Positions 30,844 through 37,753 of a stretch of DNA of 58,302 nt are shown one piece after another. The stretch's first letter is position 1. Each line of letters begins with the position of its first letter. The translations under genes were made by a program, and so were the position numbers. Source of the stretch: Nitrososphaerota archaeon (GTDB lineage: Archaea; Thermoproteota; Nitrososphaeria_A; Caldarchaeales; JAVZCJ01); NCBI GenBank assembly GCA_038817485.1, contig JAWAZL010000006.1, positions 1-58,302 on the forward strand, written 5' to 3'. A model generated the notes under the pieces. The model made no database searches. It was not told the origin of the DNA and saw only the letters and a list, made by a program, of their open reading frames with translations.

Positions 30844-31644
30844 TCATGGAATACTTAAAATAAAACTTTTAATAATAATTATTATGAATGTTATTATCAA
30901 AGCTATACTTAAAAATTTAATTAATAAAAACATATAATTTTTATCTGCTTTTTCGAATTTTATTTTTGAAAAAATTTTTGAAATTTTTAATAAAATATAT
31001 TTTTTAAAAGAATTAGGAAAATATTCTATATTATTAATTTCCTTTAAAAAATATTTATTCACATCATTATCATTTATCTTATAATTTTTATCAACTTTTA
31101 AAGCATCTTGATTAGAATCTATATCTATTATATGTCTTAAATCAAGCGTATCCATTGCATATATAGTACTTTCTAAAAGTTTTGACTTTCTTATTCCAAT
31201 AGTAGTAGGTACAGTAATTACTCTATCATTTTTTCCAATTCTAAATATTTTAAATTTTATATCCATAATTTCTTTTGTTTTACTATATAATAATGGATCA
31301 ATAACTAAAGCTACTGCTTTAGGATAAAGTTTTTGATAAATTTTTTGAGTAGAAATATCTGTTCCTGAAAGAAATACACCTAAACCTGGATGAGAATGAT
31401 ACCAACCAACAATAGTTAATCCTTTTTTTTCTTTTTGCAATTTTTCAGCAATTTGTGCTTGAATTTCCTCATTTAATTCTACAAATCCTTGCTTTCCATA
31501 TTGTTCTCCAGTTACTGCATCCCATATTTCTAAAACTTGTCCTTGCATTTTCCCAATAAGTAATCCTATTACTTCTCTTTCTAAATTTGTTAAAGAATGT
31601 TTTAATATTTTACCTAATGCAAGAGGATAAATTCTTGCTTTCAA
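30844..31644 (-). CDS. Rpn11-like JAMM deubiquitinase with C-terminal membrane anchor
   Basis: 266 residues. The MPN+ domain (1-150) has Glu24 in REVIGLLIG and HSHPGLGVFLSGTD (His83, His85, Ser93, Asp96), very close to eukaryotic Rpn11, including the VGWYHSHPG context. Related archaeal enzymes process pro-Ubl and remove Ubl from targets. Unlike a simple JAMM, it ends with a hydrophobic helix (LIKFLSIALIITFIIIIIKS, about 241-264), so it is expected to be membrane-bound with the catalytic domain in the cytoplasm. TTG start; divergent from the Ubl gene. Confidence 0.93.
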   Translation of the reverse strand: MKARIYPLALGKILKHSLTNLEREVIGLLIGKMQGQVLEIWDAVTGEQYGKQGFVELNEEIQAQIAEKLQKEKKGLTIVGWYHSHPGLGVFLSGTDISTQKIYQKLYPKAVALVIDPLLYSKTKEIMDIKFKIFRIGKNDRVITVPTTIGIRKSKLLESTIYAMDTLDLRHIIDIDSNQDALKVDKNYKINDNDVNKYFLKEINNIEYFPNSFKKYILLKISKIFSKIKFEKADKNYMFLLIKFLSIALIITFIIIIIKSFILSIP

Positions 31645-31737: not shown

Positions 31738-32001
31738 ATGAAAATAAAAGTTATTCCAGCAGTAGGTGGAGGTAGTCCATTAGAATTAGAAGTTTCTCCA
31801 GAAGCTACTATTGGAGCTATAAAAGCTAAAGTTTGCGCTATTAAACGTCTTCCACCAGATACAACTAGATTAACTTATAGAGGTAGAGCTGTAAAAGATA
31901 CCGACACTCTTGCAAATTTAGGAGTTTCAGAAGGGGATAAATTAGTTTTGATAACAAGAACTGTAGGGGGCTTTATTAATGCAAACTGCAGAGCTCCCTG
32001 A
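31738..32001 (+). CDS. Ubiquitin-like modifier, precursor with nine-residue tail
   Basis: 87 residues. The fold is the ubiquitin beta-grasp: MKIKVIPAVG, then EATIGAIKAKVCAIKRLPPD for helix 1 and LTYRGRAVKDTDTL for the loop before strand 5. Gly77-Gly78 (RTVGG) is the conjugation end, followed by nine residues, FINANCRAP, which must be removed. Lysines at positions 2, 4, 29, 31, 36, 53 and 68 could in principle form chains. The last 23 bases overlap the E2 start, so the two are translationally coupled. Resembles the Caldiarchaeum subterraneum Ubl. Confidence 0.95.
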   Translation: MKIKVIPAVGGGSPLELEVSPEATIGAIKAKVCAIKRLPPDTTRLTYRGRAVKDTDTLANLGVSEGDKLVLITRTVGGFINANCRAP

Positions 32002-32458
32002 AATAATGTGGGAGAAAAGACTTGCATTAGAATATAAATTAATGAGAGAAAATGAACCATTATTTGATATAGTTGATAATGATTTAACTCATTATATGGG
32101 TGTTATAGTAGGCTCAGGAATATATGAAAATGGATACTTCAGAGTAGAAATCATTGTACCTAGATCTTTTCCATTTACTCCACCAGAAATTATTTGGCAT
32201 ACAAGAATATGGCATCCTAATTTTTCTGATGAACAACCGGCTAGAATATGCGAATCTCTTTTAAAAGCAGATTGGTCCCCCTCAATTCATCTTTTTTCAA
32301 TTATAGAAACTTTAAGAAATTTACTTAATGAACCTAATCCAGATGATCCATTAAATTCTATTGCTGCTATGGAATTAAAATATAATCCAGAAATTTTTAA
32401 AGCACATGTTAGACAATATATTCTTGCTTTTGCAAGAGAAGAACAGGCTTTTATTTAA
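31979..32458 (+). CDS. E2 ubiquitin-conjugating-like enzyme
   Basis: 159 residues with the complete UBC fold layout: PRSFPFTPPEI, HPN at 79-81, the catalytic Cys91 in ARICESLL, then ADWSPS and LLNEPNPDDPLN. The HPN and the WSP motif downstream of the cysteine match eukaryotic E2 enzymes. It accepts the Ubl from E1 on Cys91 and passes it to the target with a RING protein. ATG 31979 follows a GGGGG site within the Ubl tail codons. Length and motifs suggest an active enzyme. Confidence 0.95.
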   Translation: MQTAELPEIMWEKRLALEYKLMRENEPLFDIVDNDLTHYMGVIVGSGIYENGYFRVEIIVPRSFPFTPPEIIWHTRIWHPNFSDEQPARICESLLKADWSPSIHLFSIIETLRNLLNEPNPDDPLNSIAAMELKYNPEIFKAHVRQYILAFAREEQAFI

Positions 32459-32480: not shown

Positions 32481-33647
32481 ATGTCATCTATGGAAAGATA
32501 TGATAGACAAATTATTATTGAAGGTTGGGATCAAAATAAAGTAAGTTCAGCTAAAATATTAATTGTAGGTGTAGGAGCTACAGGATGTGAAGTAGCTAAA
32601 AATCTTGCTTTAGTTGGCATAGGTAAATTAATTCTTGTTGATATGGATGTTATTGAATTATCAAATTTAAGTAGACAAATGCTTTTTCATAAAGGAGATA
32701 TAGGTAAACCAAAAGCAGAAGTAGCTAAAAAAAGAATTAAAAGAATGAATCCGTATGTTAAAGTTGAATCATATAATATAGATGTGCATTTTCTTGAAGG
32801 TAAAATTTTTGAAGAAGTGGATGTTATATGTTCTTGTGTTGATAATTGGCCTACTAGAAGATGGTTAAATTCCTTAGCTGTAGAATTAAATAAGCCATTA
32901 GTAGATGGAGCAATGGAAGGTTTTTATGGAAATGTTCAAGTTGTTATTCCTGGAGTAACTTCATGCATTGAATGCCATGGAGAAAATTTAATTCCAAATG
33001 AAGTTCAATTAGCTGAATGCACTTTGAAAAGAAGAACACCAAAAGATTTATTCAACGATTTAATTCAACAAGGCTTAGAAATAGATTTTGAGATGGTCTC
33101 AAAAATTTTCGATAGTGGCTTTAAAACTATATATGATATTAAATATGCTTCTATGGAACATCTTAAAAAAATTGATGAAGAATCAAGAAATTTTATATTA
33201 AACCTACAAGAAAAACTTAAACCTAAGCTTCCTGCTCTTCAAACAATTGCTGCAACAATTGCTGGTATACAATCACAAGAGGTTCTTAAAATTATTCATA
33301 AAGAAAGTATTGGTGAAATAATTAAAGGATTATTGGTTTATGATTCTAAAGCAAATTCATTTTCAATAATCGATCTTGAAAAAAATGAGAATTGTTTTGT
33401 ATGTGGAAAAGCTTTTAGAACAGGATATGTTGAATTTAGAGTTTCTCTTAATGAAACAATTCTAGATTTAAAAGAAAGAATAGCAAAATCTTTTAGTTTA
33501 CCAGACCCAGAAATACAATATAAAACAAAACTTTTAAGAGATGATCAAAAGCTTTCAGAATTAAATATTAAAAATGGAGATTTCATGCATATAAATACAA
33601 CAAGAAGATTTTCTCCTCTTACAATTAAAATTATTATTGAAGATTAA
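32481..33647 (+). CDS. E1-like activating enzyme with HhH-like insert and C-terminal ubiquitin-fold domain
   Basis: 388 residues. The adenylation domain has the ATP loop GVGATG (30-35) and VDMD; CIEC (162-165) and CFVC (305-308) hold the zinc. Cys180 in AECTLKRRTP is the likely catalytic cysteine. Residues ~190-246 contain SGFKTIYDIKYASMEHLKKI, a helix-hairpin-helix-like segment where other E1s have a catalytic-cysteine half-domain. Residues 316-374 form a ubiquitin-fold domain like the UFD used by eukaryotic E1s to recruit E2. It activates the Ubl at its Gly-Gly end. Start ATG 32481 with GAGG upstream. Confidence 0.93.
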   Translation: MSSMERYDRQIIIEGWDQNKVSSAKILIVGVGATGCEVAKNLALVGIGKLILVDMDVIELSNLSRQMLFHKGDIGKPKAEVAKKRIKRMNPYVKVESYNIDVHFLEGKIFEEVDVICSCVDNWPTRRWLNSLAVELNKPLVDGAMEGFYGNVQVVIPGVTSCIECHGENLIPNEVQLAECTLKRRTPKDLFNDLIQQGLEIDFEMVSKIFDSGFKTIYDIKYASMEHLKKIDEESRNFILNLQEKLKPKLPALQTIAATIAGIQSQEVLKIIHKESIGEIIKGLLVYDSKANSFSIIDLEKNENCFVCGKAFRTGYVEFRVSLNETILDLKERIAKSFSLPDPEIQYKTKLLRDDQKLSELNIKNGDFMHINTTRRFSPLTIKIIIED

Positions 33648-33728: not shown

Positions 33729-33971
33729 ATGAAGATTATTTTAAAAGAAGGGAGAAGTTTAGGTTTTTGGGATTGGACTATTAAAAAAAAGGCTTTTATT
33801 AAAGAAGAATTAAAATGTGTTATATGCATGTTAGAAATAAATCCTAATGATAGCATATATAAATGTCCAAATTGTGGAGCAATAGGGCATCGTGCATGTT
33901 TCCTTGAATGGAATAGATTAAGAGGAACATGTCCTATATGTAGAAGATCTATTCTTGAGGTGGTTGTTTAA
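33729..33971 (+). CDS. Small RING finger protein (candidate E3)
   Basis: 80 residues. Eight zinc ligands, spaced C30-x2-C33-x12-C46-x2-C49-x4-H54-x2-C57-x10-C68-x2-C71, form a RING-like domain with Trp61 in the conserved hydrophobic spot and a CPIC at the end. The Caldiarchaeum locus encodes a similar small RING. It should help E2 transfer the Ubl to targets. The 81 bases upstream contain an AT-rich inverted repeat, which may hold an internal promoter. Its stop overlaps the next ATG (TAATG). Confidence 0.92.
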   Translation: MKIILKEGRSLGFWDWTIKKKAFIKEELKCVICMLEINPNDSIYKCPNCGAIGHRACFLEWNRLRGTCPICRRSILEVVV

Positions 33972-34303
33972 TGGAAGAAAATAGTGAAAGTAAAAATAGT
34001 AGCGAAGTATATGAAATAGAATTGTCTTATATAGATACTCCTAAAGGTAAAGTAGCTACATATGAAAGTAGTAAAAAAATAGCAGAAGCATTAATGCTAA
34101 TATCTAGTGAAAATGAAAAAATAATTGAAAAAATTTCTCAAATTGAATCCTCAGGCATTAGTCCTGAAAAAATATCTTTTATAGAAAATAGTTTAAAAGA
34201 AATTAAAGAAATGCTAATAGAAATAGCAGCTCAATTAGATGTATTAAGTGATACCTTACAAGAATTAACAGAAATTGTTACTAAAATTAAAAAAGAAGAA
34301 TAA
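33971..34303 (+). CDS. Coiled-coil protein coupled to the RING gene
   Basis: 110 residues, no family. It is acidic, with a short strand region (VYEIELSYIDTPKGKVATY) and then a coiled coil from about residue 35 to the end. Translation is coupled to the RING gene by a one-base TAATG overlap, so it could be a partner that forms or positions a RING complex. Alternatively it is a small structural protein unrelated to ubiquitin work. Confidence 0.6.
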   Translation: MEENSESKNSSEVYEIELSYIDTPKGKVATYESSKKIAEALMLISSENEKIIEKISQIESSGISPEKISFIENSLKEIKEMLIEIAAQLDVLSDTLQELTEIVTKIKKEE

Positions 34304-34304
34304 G

Positions 34305-35150
34305 TTAAGGTTTTAATATAGCACTTCTCATATCTTTTACAATTTTTTCTAATCTATTCCTTTCTTCTTCTAATCTTTTTATCTCCTTTTCTAAAGCTTC
34401 CTTTCTTTTCTCTAATTCTTGGACTTTTAATTCAAGAGTCGAACTTTTTTCTTCAATAGCTTTAAATTCCTTCTCTTTTTCTTGCAATTTAGTTATAGCT
34501 TCAGTTAGTTCTTTCTCTTTTTTAATAAGTCTTTCAAGTCTTATTTCTCTAAATTTAAGAGATCTATCCATTTTTCTAATTTGCTCTTCAAGCATTAATG
34601 AAGTATTTTTTATTGTTTGAAGATAATTTGAAGAAAGTTCTTTAATTTCTTCTTCCAATTTTAATTTCTTGTCTTCTAATTCTTTTATTGAAGATTGTAA
34701 TAAATTAAAACTTTCTTCCTTTTCTTTTATTTCATTCATCCACTTCTTTATTTCTTCTTTCATATTTACTAATTCAGCTTTTTCTTTAGAAATTTTTTCT
34801 AAATCTCCTCTAATAATTTCTCTTTCTTTTTGAAGAACATCAAGTAAATGTTGTAAACCTTCTTGAATAGATACTATTCTTAATTCATAATCTTCAACTC
34901 TTGTTAATATTGAAGATAATTTTTCAGCTTTAGTAGTAATGTTTTCAATTTTACTAAATACTTCTGGATTATAATTTGTATAATTACTTATTTTTTCCGA
35001 CAATTCTAAAACTTTATTTTCTAAATCCTCAATTCTTCCATTAAATTTACTTATTTCTAATGATATAGTCTCTTTTAATTCAGATAATTTTGCACGTATT
35101 TCTTTTAATATTGCTTCATCTCTTTCTTTAGTTGATCCTAGTATCCCCAA
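34305..35150 (-). CDS. Long coiled-coil protein, 281 aa
   Basis: Nearly the whole sequence is predicted coiled coil (heptads with Leu and Glu/Lys), beginning MGILGSTKERDEAILKEIRA. No family is recognised; SMC-like or myosin-like hits would be compositional. No signal or membrane helix. It converges with the coiled-coil gene coupled to the RING, with stops one base apart. Three coiled-coil genes surround this modifier locus. Confidence 0.65.
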   Translation of the reverse strand: MGILGSTKERDEAILKEIRAKLSELKETISLEISKFNGRIEDLENKVLELSEKISNYTNYNPEVFSKIENITTKAEKLSSILTRVEDYELRIVSIQEGLQHLLDVLQKEREIIRGDLEKISKEKAELVNMKEEIKKWMNEIKEKEESFNLLQSSIKELEDKKLKLEEEIKELSSNYLQTIKNTSLMLEEQIRKMDRSLKFREIRLERLIKKEKELTEAITKLQEKEKEFKAIEEKSSTLELKVQELEKRKEALEKEIKRLEEERNRLEKIVKDMRSAILKP

Positions 35151-35293: not shown

Positions 35294-36019
35294 ATGTATT
35301 GGAGTATTGAAGAAGCTGAATCTAGATTATTTAGAATGGGTTCTCTTACAGCTATAATTGGAGCTGTACATATTTTTTCACTTATTTTAAATTGGTATGT
35401 TTATACAAGCGATAGTATTCAATCTATTGCAATTCAAGGATATATGATTAATGAAGTTTTATTTTTATCTGTTTTTGGTGGAGTTTTAGCTGGTTTAGCT
35501 GCTCTTTCAACATTTTTAACAAAAAAATTATCTCAAATGAAGAATGTTGAAGCATTTTGCGCATTTGTAGGAGGAATTATAGCTTTAATATCTCCTATAT
35601 ATATGATATTTATAAAAATACCTAAACTTGGAACAGGATATTATGATGTAGGTTTATTCATTTCTATACTTTCTGCAATTAGCTTATTAATTTCAGGCAT
35701 AATAATATCTTTTATACCAACAAGATTCGAAGTAATACCTGCACCTGCTCCAAGTACAACTTTGCCTACTGGAATTCCTTCTCCAACTCCTCAAACTCTT
35801 ACTCAAATTCCTAGACAAACTACTGTAATGATTCCTACTGATGATTTTCCAATAGGTGCTATGTGTACAATTTGTCTTCAACCACTTGAAGTTGGCTCAA
35901 CTGCTAAATGTAAAGCTTGTGGAGCATTATTCCATCAAGGATGTATAGATGCATGGGTTGAATTAAATAGAGTTTGTCCAAATTGTAATACTCCTGTTGA
36001 ATATTATTCAATAGAGTAG
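35294..36019 (+). CDS. Membrane-anchored RING protein (candidate membrane E3)
   Basis: 241 residues: four predicted membrane helices (about 15-35, 50-72, 85-107, 118-141), a Pro/Thr-rich linker (145-180), and a C-terminal RING with ligands C191-x2-C194-x11-C206-x2-C209-x4-H214-x2-C217-x10-C228-x2-C231. Apart from one gap length this matches the small RING at 33729 exactly, including Trp221. It is expected in the cell membrane with the RING inside the cell. The GlyRS gene follows on the same strand. I recognise no named family for the membrane part. Confidence 0.85.
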   Translation: MYWSIEEAESRLFRMGSLTAIIGAVHIFSLILNWYVYTSDSIQSIAIQGYMINEVLFLSVFGGVLAGLAALSTFLTKKLSQMKNVEAFCAFVGGIIALISPIYMIFIKIPKLGTGYYDVGLFISILSAISLLISGIIISFIPTRFEVIPAPAPSTTLPTGIPSPTPQTLTQIPRQTTVMIPTDDFPIGAMCTICLQPLEVGSTAKCKACGALFHQGCIDAWVELNRVCPNCNTPVEYYSIE

Positions 36020-36031
36020 GAGAGAAAAAAT

Positions 36032-37753
36032 TTGAATAAAGAAAGCAAAGATAAATTCCTATCTCTTTTAAAAAGAAGAGGCTTCCTTTGGCCTTCTTAT
36101 GAAATTTATGGTGGATTAGCAGGATTTATAACATATGGTCCTTTAGGAGTTAAATTGAAGAGAAAAATAGAAGATTTATGGCGTAATATTTTTATTAAAA
36201 AGCATGGATTTATTGAAATAGATGCTCCAACTATTGGACCAATTGAAATGTATGAAGCAACAGGCTTTTTAGAATCTTTTAAAGATAAAGTAGGTACTTG
36301 TATTAAATGTAATAGAAAATGGAGAATTGATCATTTAATTGAAGAACAAACAAAAATACCTTCTTTAGAAATTGAAAAATTACCTATTGAAAAAATACAA
36401 GAAATTATAGAAAATGAAAATGTTAAATGTCCAATTTGTGGAGGAGAAATAAGAAATATTTCATTCCATAGCTTAATGTTTAAAACTACTGTAGGGCCAT
36501 TTGAAGATAGGATAGATTTTTTAAGACCAGAAACCGCGCAAGGTATTTTTACAGAATTTATAAAAGAATATGAATTATCTAGAAAAAAACTTCCGATAGG
36601 AGTAGCTCAAATAGGTAAGTGTTTTAGAAATGAGATTTCTCCAAGACAAGGACCAATACGTTTAAGAGAATTTACAATAATGGAATTAGAATTAATGTTT
36701 GATCCTGAAAATCCTGAATGTCCATATCTAAAAGAAGTAATAAATGAGAAAGTAAAAGTTCTTACAGCTTCTCAAAGATTAAACAATATTAATGAACCTA
36801 AAGAATATTCTTTAGAAGAATTAATTTCTAATAAAATTGTTAAACAAGATTGGCAAGCATACTTTATGTATTTATCAAATAAATTCATTAATATGCTTGG
36901 TATTCCAAATGATAAAACATTCTTTTTAGAAAAACTTCCAGAAGAAAGAGCTCATTATGCACAACAAGTATTTGATCAACTTGTTTATAGTGAGATATGG
37001 GGATGGATTGAAGTTTCTGGCCATGCATATAGAAGCGATTTTGATTTATCCCGTCATTCTTTAAAAAGCGGAATTGAATTGAAAGCTTTTAGAAAATATT
37101 CTATTCCTAAAAAAGTTAAGAAAATTAATATTAAACCTAATATTAAAAAAATCAAAGAATTTTTTGGAGATAAATCAAGTATAATTTTATCAAAATTAAG
37201 TAATATTGATAATAAAGAAATTGAAGAAAAAATTAATAAAAATGGATATATAAAAATTGATGATATTGTTTTATCTAAAGAATTATTCGAAATTATAGAA
37301 ATAGAAGAAACTTTACATGGAGAAAGCTTTATTCCACATGTTGTTGAACCATCTTTTGGAGTTGATAGAGTTACTTATATTACTTTAGAATATGCTTATA
37401 GTGAAAAGGAAAATAGAATAGTAATGAATATTCCTAAAGAAGTAGCTCCTATAGAAATTGCAGTATTTCCTTTATTAGAATCAAAAAATCTTATTGAAAA
37501 ATCCATTGAAATCTATAATTTAATTATGGAAAATGGTTTTGAAGCTATATATGATGAATCTGGATATATTGGTAGAAGATATATGAGAGCTGATGAACAA
37601 GGGATACCTATTTGTATTACAATAGATCATCAAACTATTGAAGATAATACTGTAACTTTTAGAGATAGAAATACATGGCTTCAAAAAAGGGTTCCTATAA
37701 AAGATATTATAAAAGAATTAAATATTATTTTTAAGAGAGAAAGACATTTATAA
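36032..37753 (+). CDS. glyS: Glycyl-tRNA synthetase
   Basis: 573 residues, class II GlyRS of the archaeal/eukaryotic type. GGLAGFITYGPLG near the N-terminus, ATGFLESFKDKVGTC with two CxxC pairs, RPETAQGIF, and the C-terminal anticodon domain (FRDRNTWLQKRV) are all in place. The start is TTG with a purine-rich site upstream. It follows the membrane RING gene with 12 bases between and could be read together with it. Confidence 0.95.
   Translation: MNKESKDKFLSLLKRRGFLWPSYEIYGGLAGFITYGPLGVKLKRKIEDLWRNIFIKKHGFIEIDAPTIGPIEMYEATGFLESFKDKVGTCIKCNRKWRIDHLIEEQTKIPSLEIEKLPIEKIQEIIENENVKCPICGGEIRNISFHSLMFKTTVGPFEDRIDFLRPETAQGIFTEFIKEYELSRKKLPIGVAQIGKCFRNEISPRQGPIRLREFTIMELELMFDPENPECPYLKEVINEKVKVLTASQRLNNINEPKEYSLEELISNKIVKQDWQAYFMYLSNKFINMLGIPNDKTFFLEKLPEERAHYAQQVFDQLVYSEIWGWIEVSGHAYRSDFDLSRHSLKSGIELKAFRKYSIPKKVKKINIKPNIKKIKEFFGDKSSIILSKLSNIDNKEIEEKINKNGYIKIDDIVLSKELFEIIEIEETLHGESFIPHVVEPSFGVDRVTYITLEYAYSEKENRIVMNIPKEVAPIEIAVFPLLESKNLIEKSIEIYNLIMENGFEAIYDESGYIGRRYMRADEQGIPICITIDHQTIEDNTVTFRDRNTWLQKRVPIKDIIKELNIIFKRERHL

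Follow-up and report, generated by a model that had tools for sequence, protein, structure and literature searches.

The eukaryote-like ubiquitin locus of the archaeal order Caldarchaeales raises the question of whether a second RING protein, encoded close to it and carrying a membrane domain, serves as an E3 ligase next to the small soluble RING. Reconstituted archaeal ubiquitin systems have, to our knowledge, contained a single RING, small and soluble. The window, i.e., the whole stretch of 58,302 nucleotides that was analysed, comes from a Nitrososphaerota archaeon of this order.

The ubiquitin locus and the mRING gene

On the forward strand of the window, a ubiquitin-like protein extended at its C-terminus beyond GG (31738..32001; PF00240, 2e-12), an E2 (31979..32458; PF00179, 4e-29) and an E1-like protein with a C-terminal ubiquitin-like domain (32481..33647; ThiF 2e-65, ubiquitin 3e-9) are encoded in succession. 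They are followed by srfp (33729..33971, forward; zf-RING_2 3e-10), a small RING orthologous to the biochemically proven E3 of Candidatus Caldarchaeum subterraneum. An Rpn11-like JAMM protease (30844..31644; JAB 2e-20) is encoded on the reverse strand. Two coiled-coil proteins recognized by synteny, the small cc110 (33971..34303, forward), conserved between srfp and mRING, and cc281 (34305..35150, reverse), divergent from mRING, separate srfp from the gene in question, designated mRING (35294..36019, forward). The ubiquitin, E2 and E1 genes lie about 2-4 kb from mRING, and 12 bp downstream of it is a forward-strand gene (36032..37753) which we take, from synteny and from a family assignment based on sequence and established knowledge, to be glycyl-tRNA synthetase (GlyRS). 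The ubiquitin precursor (31738-32001) ends with a FINANCRAP tail after GG, the end of its gene overlapping the start of the E2 ORF. The precursor therefore needs processing, presumably by Rpn11.

The mRING ORF begins with ATG, encodes 241 aa, and has exactly the boundaries that had been given in a sequence-only reading of this DNA. That reading had described four membrane helices, a Pro/Thr-rich linker and a C-terminal RING with the ligand spacing of the small RING except for one loop, and all of these features were confirmed. Pfam zf-RING_2 matches mRING at aa 190-232 (35861..35989, forward) with E = 8.1e-11 and 42.5 bits against a cut-off of 27.3, and it also matches all 28 aligned orthologues. 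The ligands are C191-x2-C194-x11-C206-x2-C209-x4-H214-x2-C217-x10-C228-x2-C231. The spacing in srfp is C-x2-C-x12-C-x2-C-x4-H-x2-C-x10-C-x2-C, so that the first loop, with 11 residues against 12, is the single difference. All eight zinc ligands are invariant in the alignment of orthologues down to about 25% identity, and the dN/dS of mRING relative to the sister species is about 0.09, with zero amino-acid changes within the RING. Thus, the RING is well beyond chance.

The domain has the eight invariant zinc ligands of a cross-brace RING. Their order is C4HC3, with a CxxCG knuckle where classical RING-H2 has CxH, and mRING is therefore outside the RING-H2 (C3H2C3) subclass. Nor does it belong to the RING-CH/MARCH type, which has C-x-C and about x7 before His, since mRING has C-x2-C-x4-H and RINGv matches only with E = 0.85. 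A zinc ribbon or a PHD finger was rejected for the C-terminus because zf-RING_2 scores far better and the Ile and Trp positions are conserved. NCBIfam contains no model for mRING.

The best PDB sequence matches of the mRING RING, and its closest solved relatives, are the active E3s RNF111/Arkadia (2e-11) and RNF165/ARK2C (3e-10), the latter solved with E2~Ub. With Foldseek, the RING of the mRING model aligns to RNF165 in the UbE2D2-Ub complex. Unlike mRING, both are soluble and have a classical C3H2C3 RING with the linchpin Arg. This likeness could be read as a recent horizontal acquisition of a eukaryotic membrane E3. That origin is extremely improbable, being disfavoured by the presence of mRING in all four families of the order, by its conserved position, and by the grouping of mRING and srfp as two separate groups with a common C4HC3 variant; the membrane domain also has no eukaryotic sequence match in Pfam.

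Membrane domain, topology and tether

Family-averaged hydropathy shows four hydrophobic cores in mRING, centred at about aa 25, 64, 95 and 131. The AlphaFold model, built from 28 orthologues (mean pLDDT 86), has a confident RING, a disordered linker, and four helices that agree with these cores. Helix 1 (aa 5-31; 35306..35386) contains the invariant residues R11, H26 and L30 of the alignment. It is followed by a predicted extracellular beta hairpin (aa 33-48; 35390..35437) with the invariant W34, next to the invariant G49. Helix 2 (aa 53-75; 35450..35518), helix 3 (aa 79-112; 35528..35629), which is preceded by a K/R-rich, predicted cytosolic loop, and helix 4 (aa 119-139; 35648..35710) are supported by both hydropathy and model. 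Two of the modelled strands lie between helices 1 and 2 and one before helix 4. The tether between helix 4 and the RING (aa about 142-187; 35717..35854; all on the forward strand) is disordered, with pLDDT <50 at aa 153-173. Its length across the family is 38-87 residues, and its composition is rich in P/T in the window protein and in P/E/A/T over the family.

The outer loops carry a family mean of 0.5 and 0.75 K/R, compared with 2.3 for the N-terminus and 2.6 for loop 2. This positive-inside distribution puts the predicted N- and C-termini both inside, so that the RING would face the cytosol, where the E2 is.

No Pfam family is supported for the membrane part of mRING, and no eukaryotic sequence in Pfam matches it. 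Foldseek searches against PDB with two separate models, that of the window mRING and that of a 34%-identical orthologue of the C. subterraneum type, gave claudins and TARPs as top matches with a probability of about 1.0; the target TM-scores are mostly about 0.5-0.58 and the E-values only 3e-3 or worse. As modelled, mRING may resemble members of the claudin/TARP superfamily in its four helices, predicted extracellular beta strands and a Trp starting the first loop, the likeness being one of fold only. A Pfam claudin model was not found among the listed Pfam matches, and mRING lacks the first-loop cysteine pair of the claudin signature W-GLW-C-C. Given the weak E-values, the modelled membrane domain is best described as having a claudin/TARP-like fold resemblance, not as a claudin.

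The layout had been compared to that of eukaryotic membrane E3 enzymes. HRD1/synoviolin, gp78/AMFR, ZNRF and RNF13 indeed have membrane helices followed by a cytosolic RING, and the RINGs of HRD1, AMFR, ZNRF and RNF13 are among the PDB sequence matches of mRING. The comparison holds for the architecture but not for the membrane domain, which is unrelated in sequence to those of HRD1, gp78 and MARCH. A homologous domain of the HRD1/gp78 type is indicated neither by Pfam, where there is no match, nor by Foldseek, which leads with claudins and not with HRD1. The RINGs of the eukaryotic enzymes also differ, being C3H2C3 versus C4HC3 in mRING.

E2-contact residues and the linchpin position

The E2-contact residues expected of a RING E3 are all present in the window mRING as I193, W221 and P229, while the position after the last ligand, occupied by the linchpin Arg/Lys in such enzymes, is Asn (N232). 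The conservation was examined in 40 distinct mRING RINGs, after leaving out one srfp row mis-sorted among them. The Ile is found in 39/40, with one Leu, and the Trp in 37/40, the three exceptions being Tyr and all from the C. subterraneum genus. The Pro of the CP-x-C motif is conserved in 40/40. At the linchpin position, 22 RINGs have K/R, 15 have Gly, 2 have Gln, and 1, that of the window species, has Asn. Not every RING E3 depends strictly on a linchpin Arg/Lys.

For the C. subterraneum srfp, James et al. (2017) reported that I30Q abolished ubiquitylation and that W58A and R69A impaired it; the protein has out-of-register ligands and an extra cysteine (PMC5654768), as does mRING. The srfp orthologue at locus L032 carries exactly I30, W58 and R69, matching the published numbering. 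The C. subterraneum srfp (PMC5654768) and mRING share the C4HC3 order with the CxxCG knuckle, the E2-contact Ile/Trp/Pro and the locus. They differ in that srfp is soluble, about 75-80 aa in length, and retains R/K at the linchpin, whereas in mRING a four-helix membrane domain is added and the linchpin is often missing.

In one of the four families, designated f3, all zinc ligands and the R/K are kept in srfp, but the Ile is replaced by Ala/Ser/Val and the Trp by Leu. Thus, Ile and Trp are not simply requirements of the fold. In the f3 mRINGs, Ile and Trp are kept and the linchpin position is Gly in every case. The simplest reading of these alignments is that mRING is probably the E2-binding RING under the strongest constraint, with the f3 srfp either dependent on it or diverged.

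The complementary patterns of the two f3 RINGs, one without Ile/Trp but with R/K and the other the reverse, are also what would be expected if mRING were a membrane platform and not a strong E3, recruiting the E2 and pairing or forming a complex with srfp (and cc110/cc281), so that the soluble ligase is brought to the membrane. The gene order in f3 fits this as well, because srfp, cc110, cc281, mRING and GlyRS remain together in 8/8 genomes outside genus g7 although the ubiquitin, E2, E1 and Rpn11 genes have been relocated. In g7, however, srfp and mRING are unlinked, and most mRINGs of family f4 have their own Lys at the linchpin position. In known RING-E2 structures, moreover, the linchpin is located on the E2-binding RING itself, and therefore complementation across a pair is not textbook geometry. 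A platform role is rather unlikely on balance, and a ligase activity of mRING itself is the preferred reading.

The E2 of family f3 (e.g., at loci L071, L121 and L130) has a change of loop 7, the RING-binding loop, from WSPS to WYPN or WHPN; this is the same family in which srfp has lost Ile and Trp.

Gene neighbourhood

The sequence-only reading had proposed to look for the gene next to the ubiquitin locus in related genomes. The gene order around mRING is conserved in three families and partly in the fourth. In f1, f2 and f4, Rpn11 (preceded in some cases by cc257) is divergent from the ubiquitin-E2-E1-srfp-cc110 series, which converges on cc281, and mRING then leads into GlyRS and in some cases PhoU. 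In C. subterraneum-type genomes, where 14 kb was examined, cc257 and GlyRS are the outermost of the known neighbours, one at each end. In f3 (G009 and G014-G020), the position is kept only relative to srfp and its companions, the ubiquitin, E2, E1 and Rpn11 genes having moved 86 kb away in G015 and about 310 kb in G020. In g7, GlyRS alone still adjoins mRING. In these gene orders, mRING is linked more closely to srfp than to E2, and GlyRS, ahead of the ubiquitin genes, is its most constant neighbour of all. Part of the conservation of mRING may thus reflect an operon with this housekeeping gene, though in G008 GlyRS has the inverted orientation next to mRING.

The constancy of GlyRS, g7 included, could mean that the C-terminus of mRING forms a zinc module that has the shape of a RING but acts outside ubiquitin, for example in a membrane protein of a GlyRS operon; small proteins with RING-like C4HC3 fingers do occur in other archaea without a detected E2 (G380, G072). 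Such a role appears improbable, considering the surface-type E2-contact residues that are invariant in mRING and lost in the f3 srfp, the strict co-occurrence of mRING with E2, the E3s as best PDB matches, and the inversion of GlyRS in G008.

At complete loci, the coiled-coil pair cc110 and cc281 nearly always separates srfp from mRING. A conserved ETPKGK-type motif is found at the N-terminus of cc110. These two proteins are possible adaptors.

Distribution of mRING

In a full-length search covering both membrane domain and RING, mRING was found in 41/44 genomes of Caldarchaeales, in all four families, and in 0/354 other Thermoproteota, where matches were weak and restricted to the linker/RING region. 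Candidatus Caldarchaeum subterraneum carries mRING as a named match. A single-protein scan of genome contigs with the window mRING gave no relatives, and with the C. subterraneum orthologue as query one named relative. E2 is present in 44/44 genomes of the order and above the cut-off in 6/354 other Thermoproteota. Every genome with mRING also has E2, as expected for a RING E3. Homologues with this RING in genomes lacking the ubiquitin-like protein and E2, which had been named as evidence against an E3 role, were looked for and none was found. As the co-occurrence is confined to one clade, it represents one evolutionary event, not many.

Two of the genomes without mRING, G001 (81% complete) and G040 (76%), are fragmentary. 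In the third, G036 (95% complete), E2 and srfp were found but mRING was not detected; the contig concerned begins just beyond cc281, and its sequence shows no mRING gene at that place. In nearly all Caldarchaeales genomes, the zf-RING_2 model finds srfp and mRING and no other protein; a few fragmentary genomes have a single match, and G006 and G007 have additional weak partial matches. Both srfp and mRING appear specific to Caldarchaeales within the phylum sample.

Small RING-like C4HC3 proteins are encoded at L140 4190-4522 (G380) and L141 2744-2950 (G072), in Thermoproteota genomes without a detected E2. They are a caution that a RING-like fold alone is no proof of E3 function. At four Thermoproteota ubiquitin/E2/E1 loci (L136-L139, from G067, G229, G160 and G342), most of which include a JAMM gene, a RING-like pattern was not found nearby.

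Proposed function of mRING

It is likely, with a probability of roughly two in three, that mRING serves the ubiquitin system of Caldarchaeales as a second RING E3 ligase, embedded in the membrane, as judged from sequence conservation and structural models. The proposal that a membrane-anchored RING acts as an E3 near the ubiquitin locus is partly supported in silico by the topology, the E2-contact residues, the co-occurrence with E2 and the position; a membrane-bound Rpn11 as a general component is not. Points against an E3 role are the missing linchpin R/K in 18/40 RINGs, GlyRS as the most constant neighbour, the genome G036, and the co-occurrence within a single clade.

The RING of mRING would dock the only E2 of the locus, charged with ubiquitin by the E1-like enzyme, beside the membrane, while the membrane domain, predicted to be claudin/TARP-like, would select substrates or partners sideways in the membrane. 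Ubiquitin would then be transferred to membrane proteins, at lysines exposed on their cytosolic side, and Rpn11 might reverse the modification or free ubiquitin before proteasomal or Cdc48 handling. Soluble substrates may be handled by srfp, or srfp may act with mRING via cc110 and cc281.

The C-terminal membrane helix of the window Rpn11 is strong (Kyte-Doolittle 3.04), and it is also present in the sister species G021 (L131 11049-11852). It was found in 0/20 other orthologous ORFs examined in the order. The membrane-bound protease noted earlier is thus real in this genus, but the helix is genus-specific; a membrane Rpn11 was rejected as a general partner of mRING, and the membrane-bound deubiquitinase is outside the general model. 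A paired centre of conjugation and deconjugation at the membrane is at most a local elaboration. Of the quality control or turnover that the sequence-only reading had suggested, a turnover role is possible, given that the same genome encodes 20S proteasome subunits and two ATPases of the Cdc48 type.

Fuchs et al. (2018) mentioned in one line that the C. subterraneum operon adjoins "a second E3 protein" (PMC6043591). This protein is almost certainly the mRING orthologue, because srfp and mRING are the only two RINGs of the genome in which the srfp residues agree with the published numbering. In the part of that article (PMC6043591) consulted, the mention comes without membrane anchoring, conservation, topology or E2-interface analysis, and it was the only trace of an archaeal membrane RING in the literature searched. 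As far as these sources go, the existence of a second E3 next to the C. subterraneum operon had been mentioned by 2018, and its membrane anchoring, conservation and E2 interface are new.

Membrane proteins are suggested as natural substrates by the order-wide presence of a membrane-embedded second RING. In srfp and mRING, moreover, a minimal system with two E3s and one main E2 would have specialised its ligases into a soluble and a membrane form. The presence of mRING in an order of hot-spring archaea suggests that ubiquitin tagging of membrane proteins may be older than eukaryotes, and mRING offers a concrete thermostable protein for asking whether this is so. It can be proposed only tentatively, and with more doubt than confidence, that the order has a complete module for membrane-protein ubiquitylation, in which a RING with a fused claudin-fold membrane sensor would operate together with a soluble RING and a pair of coiled-coil proteins. 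Such a module would be, in functional terms, an archaeal forerunner of ER-associated membrane E3s or a parallel to them, with a membrane RING that recruits the E2 and a small RING dividing the labour.

Genus g7 has a second operon, divergent and carrying E2-like and JAMM genes (L132 7226-8531; L134 3044-5869), and an E1-like gene is also present in L134. This operon is a second ubiquitin-like system. A third RING-like protein of g7 is encoded about 3 kb from it.
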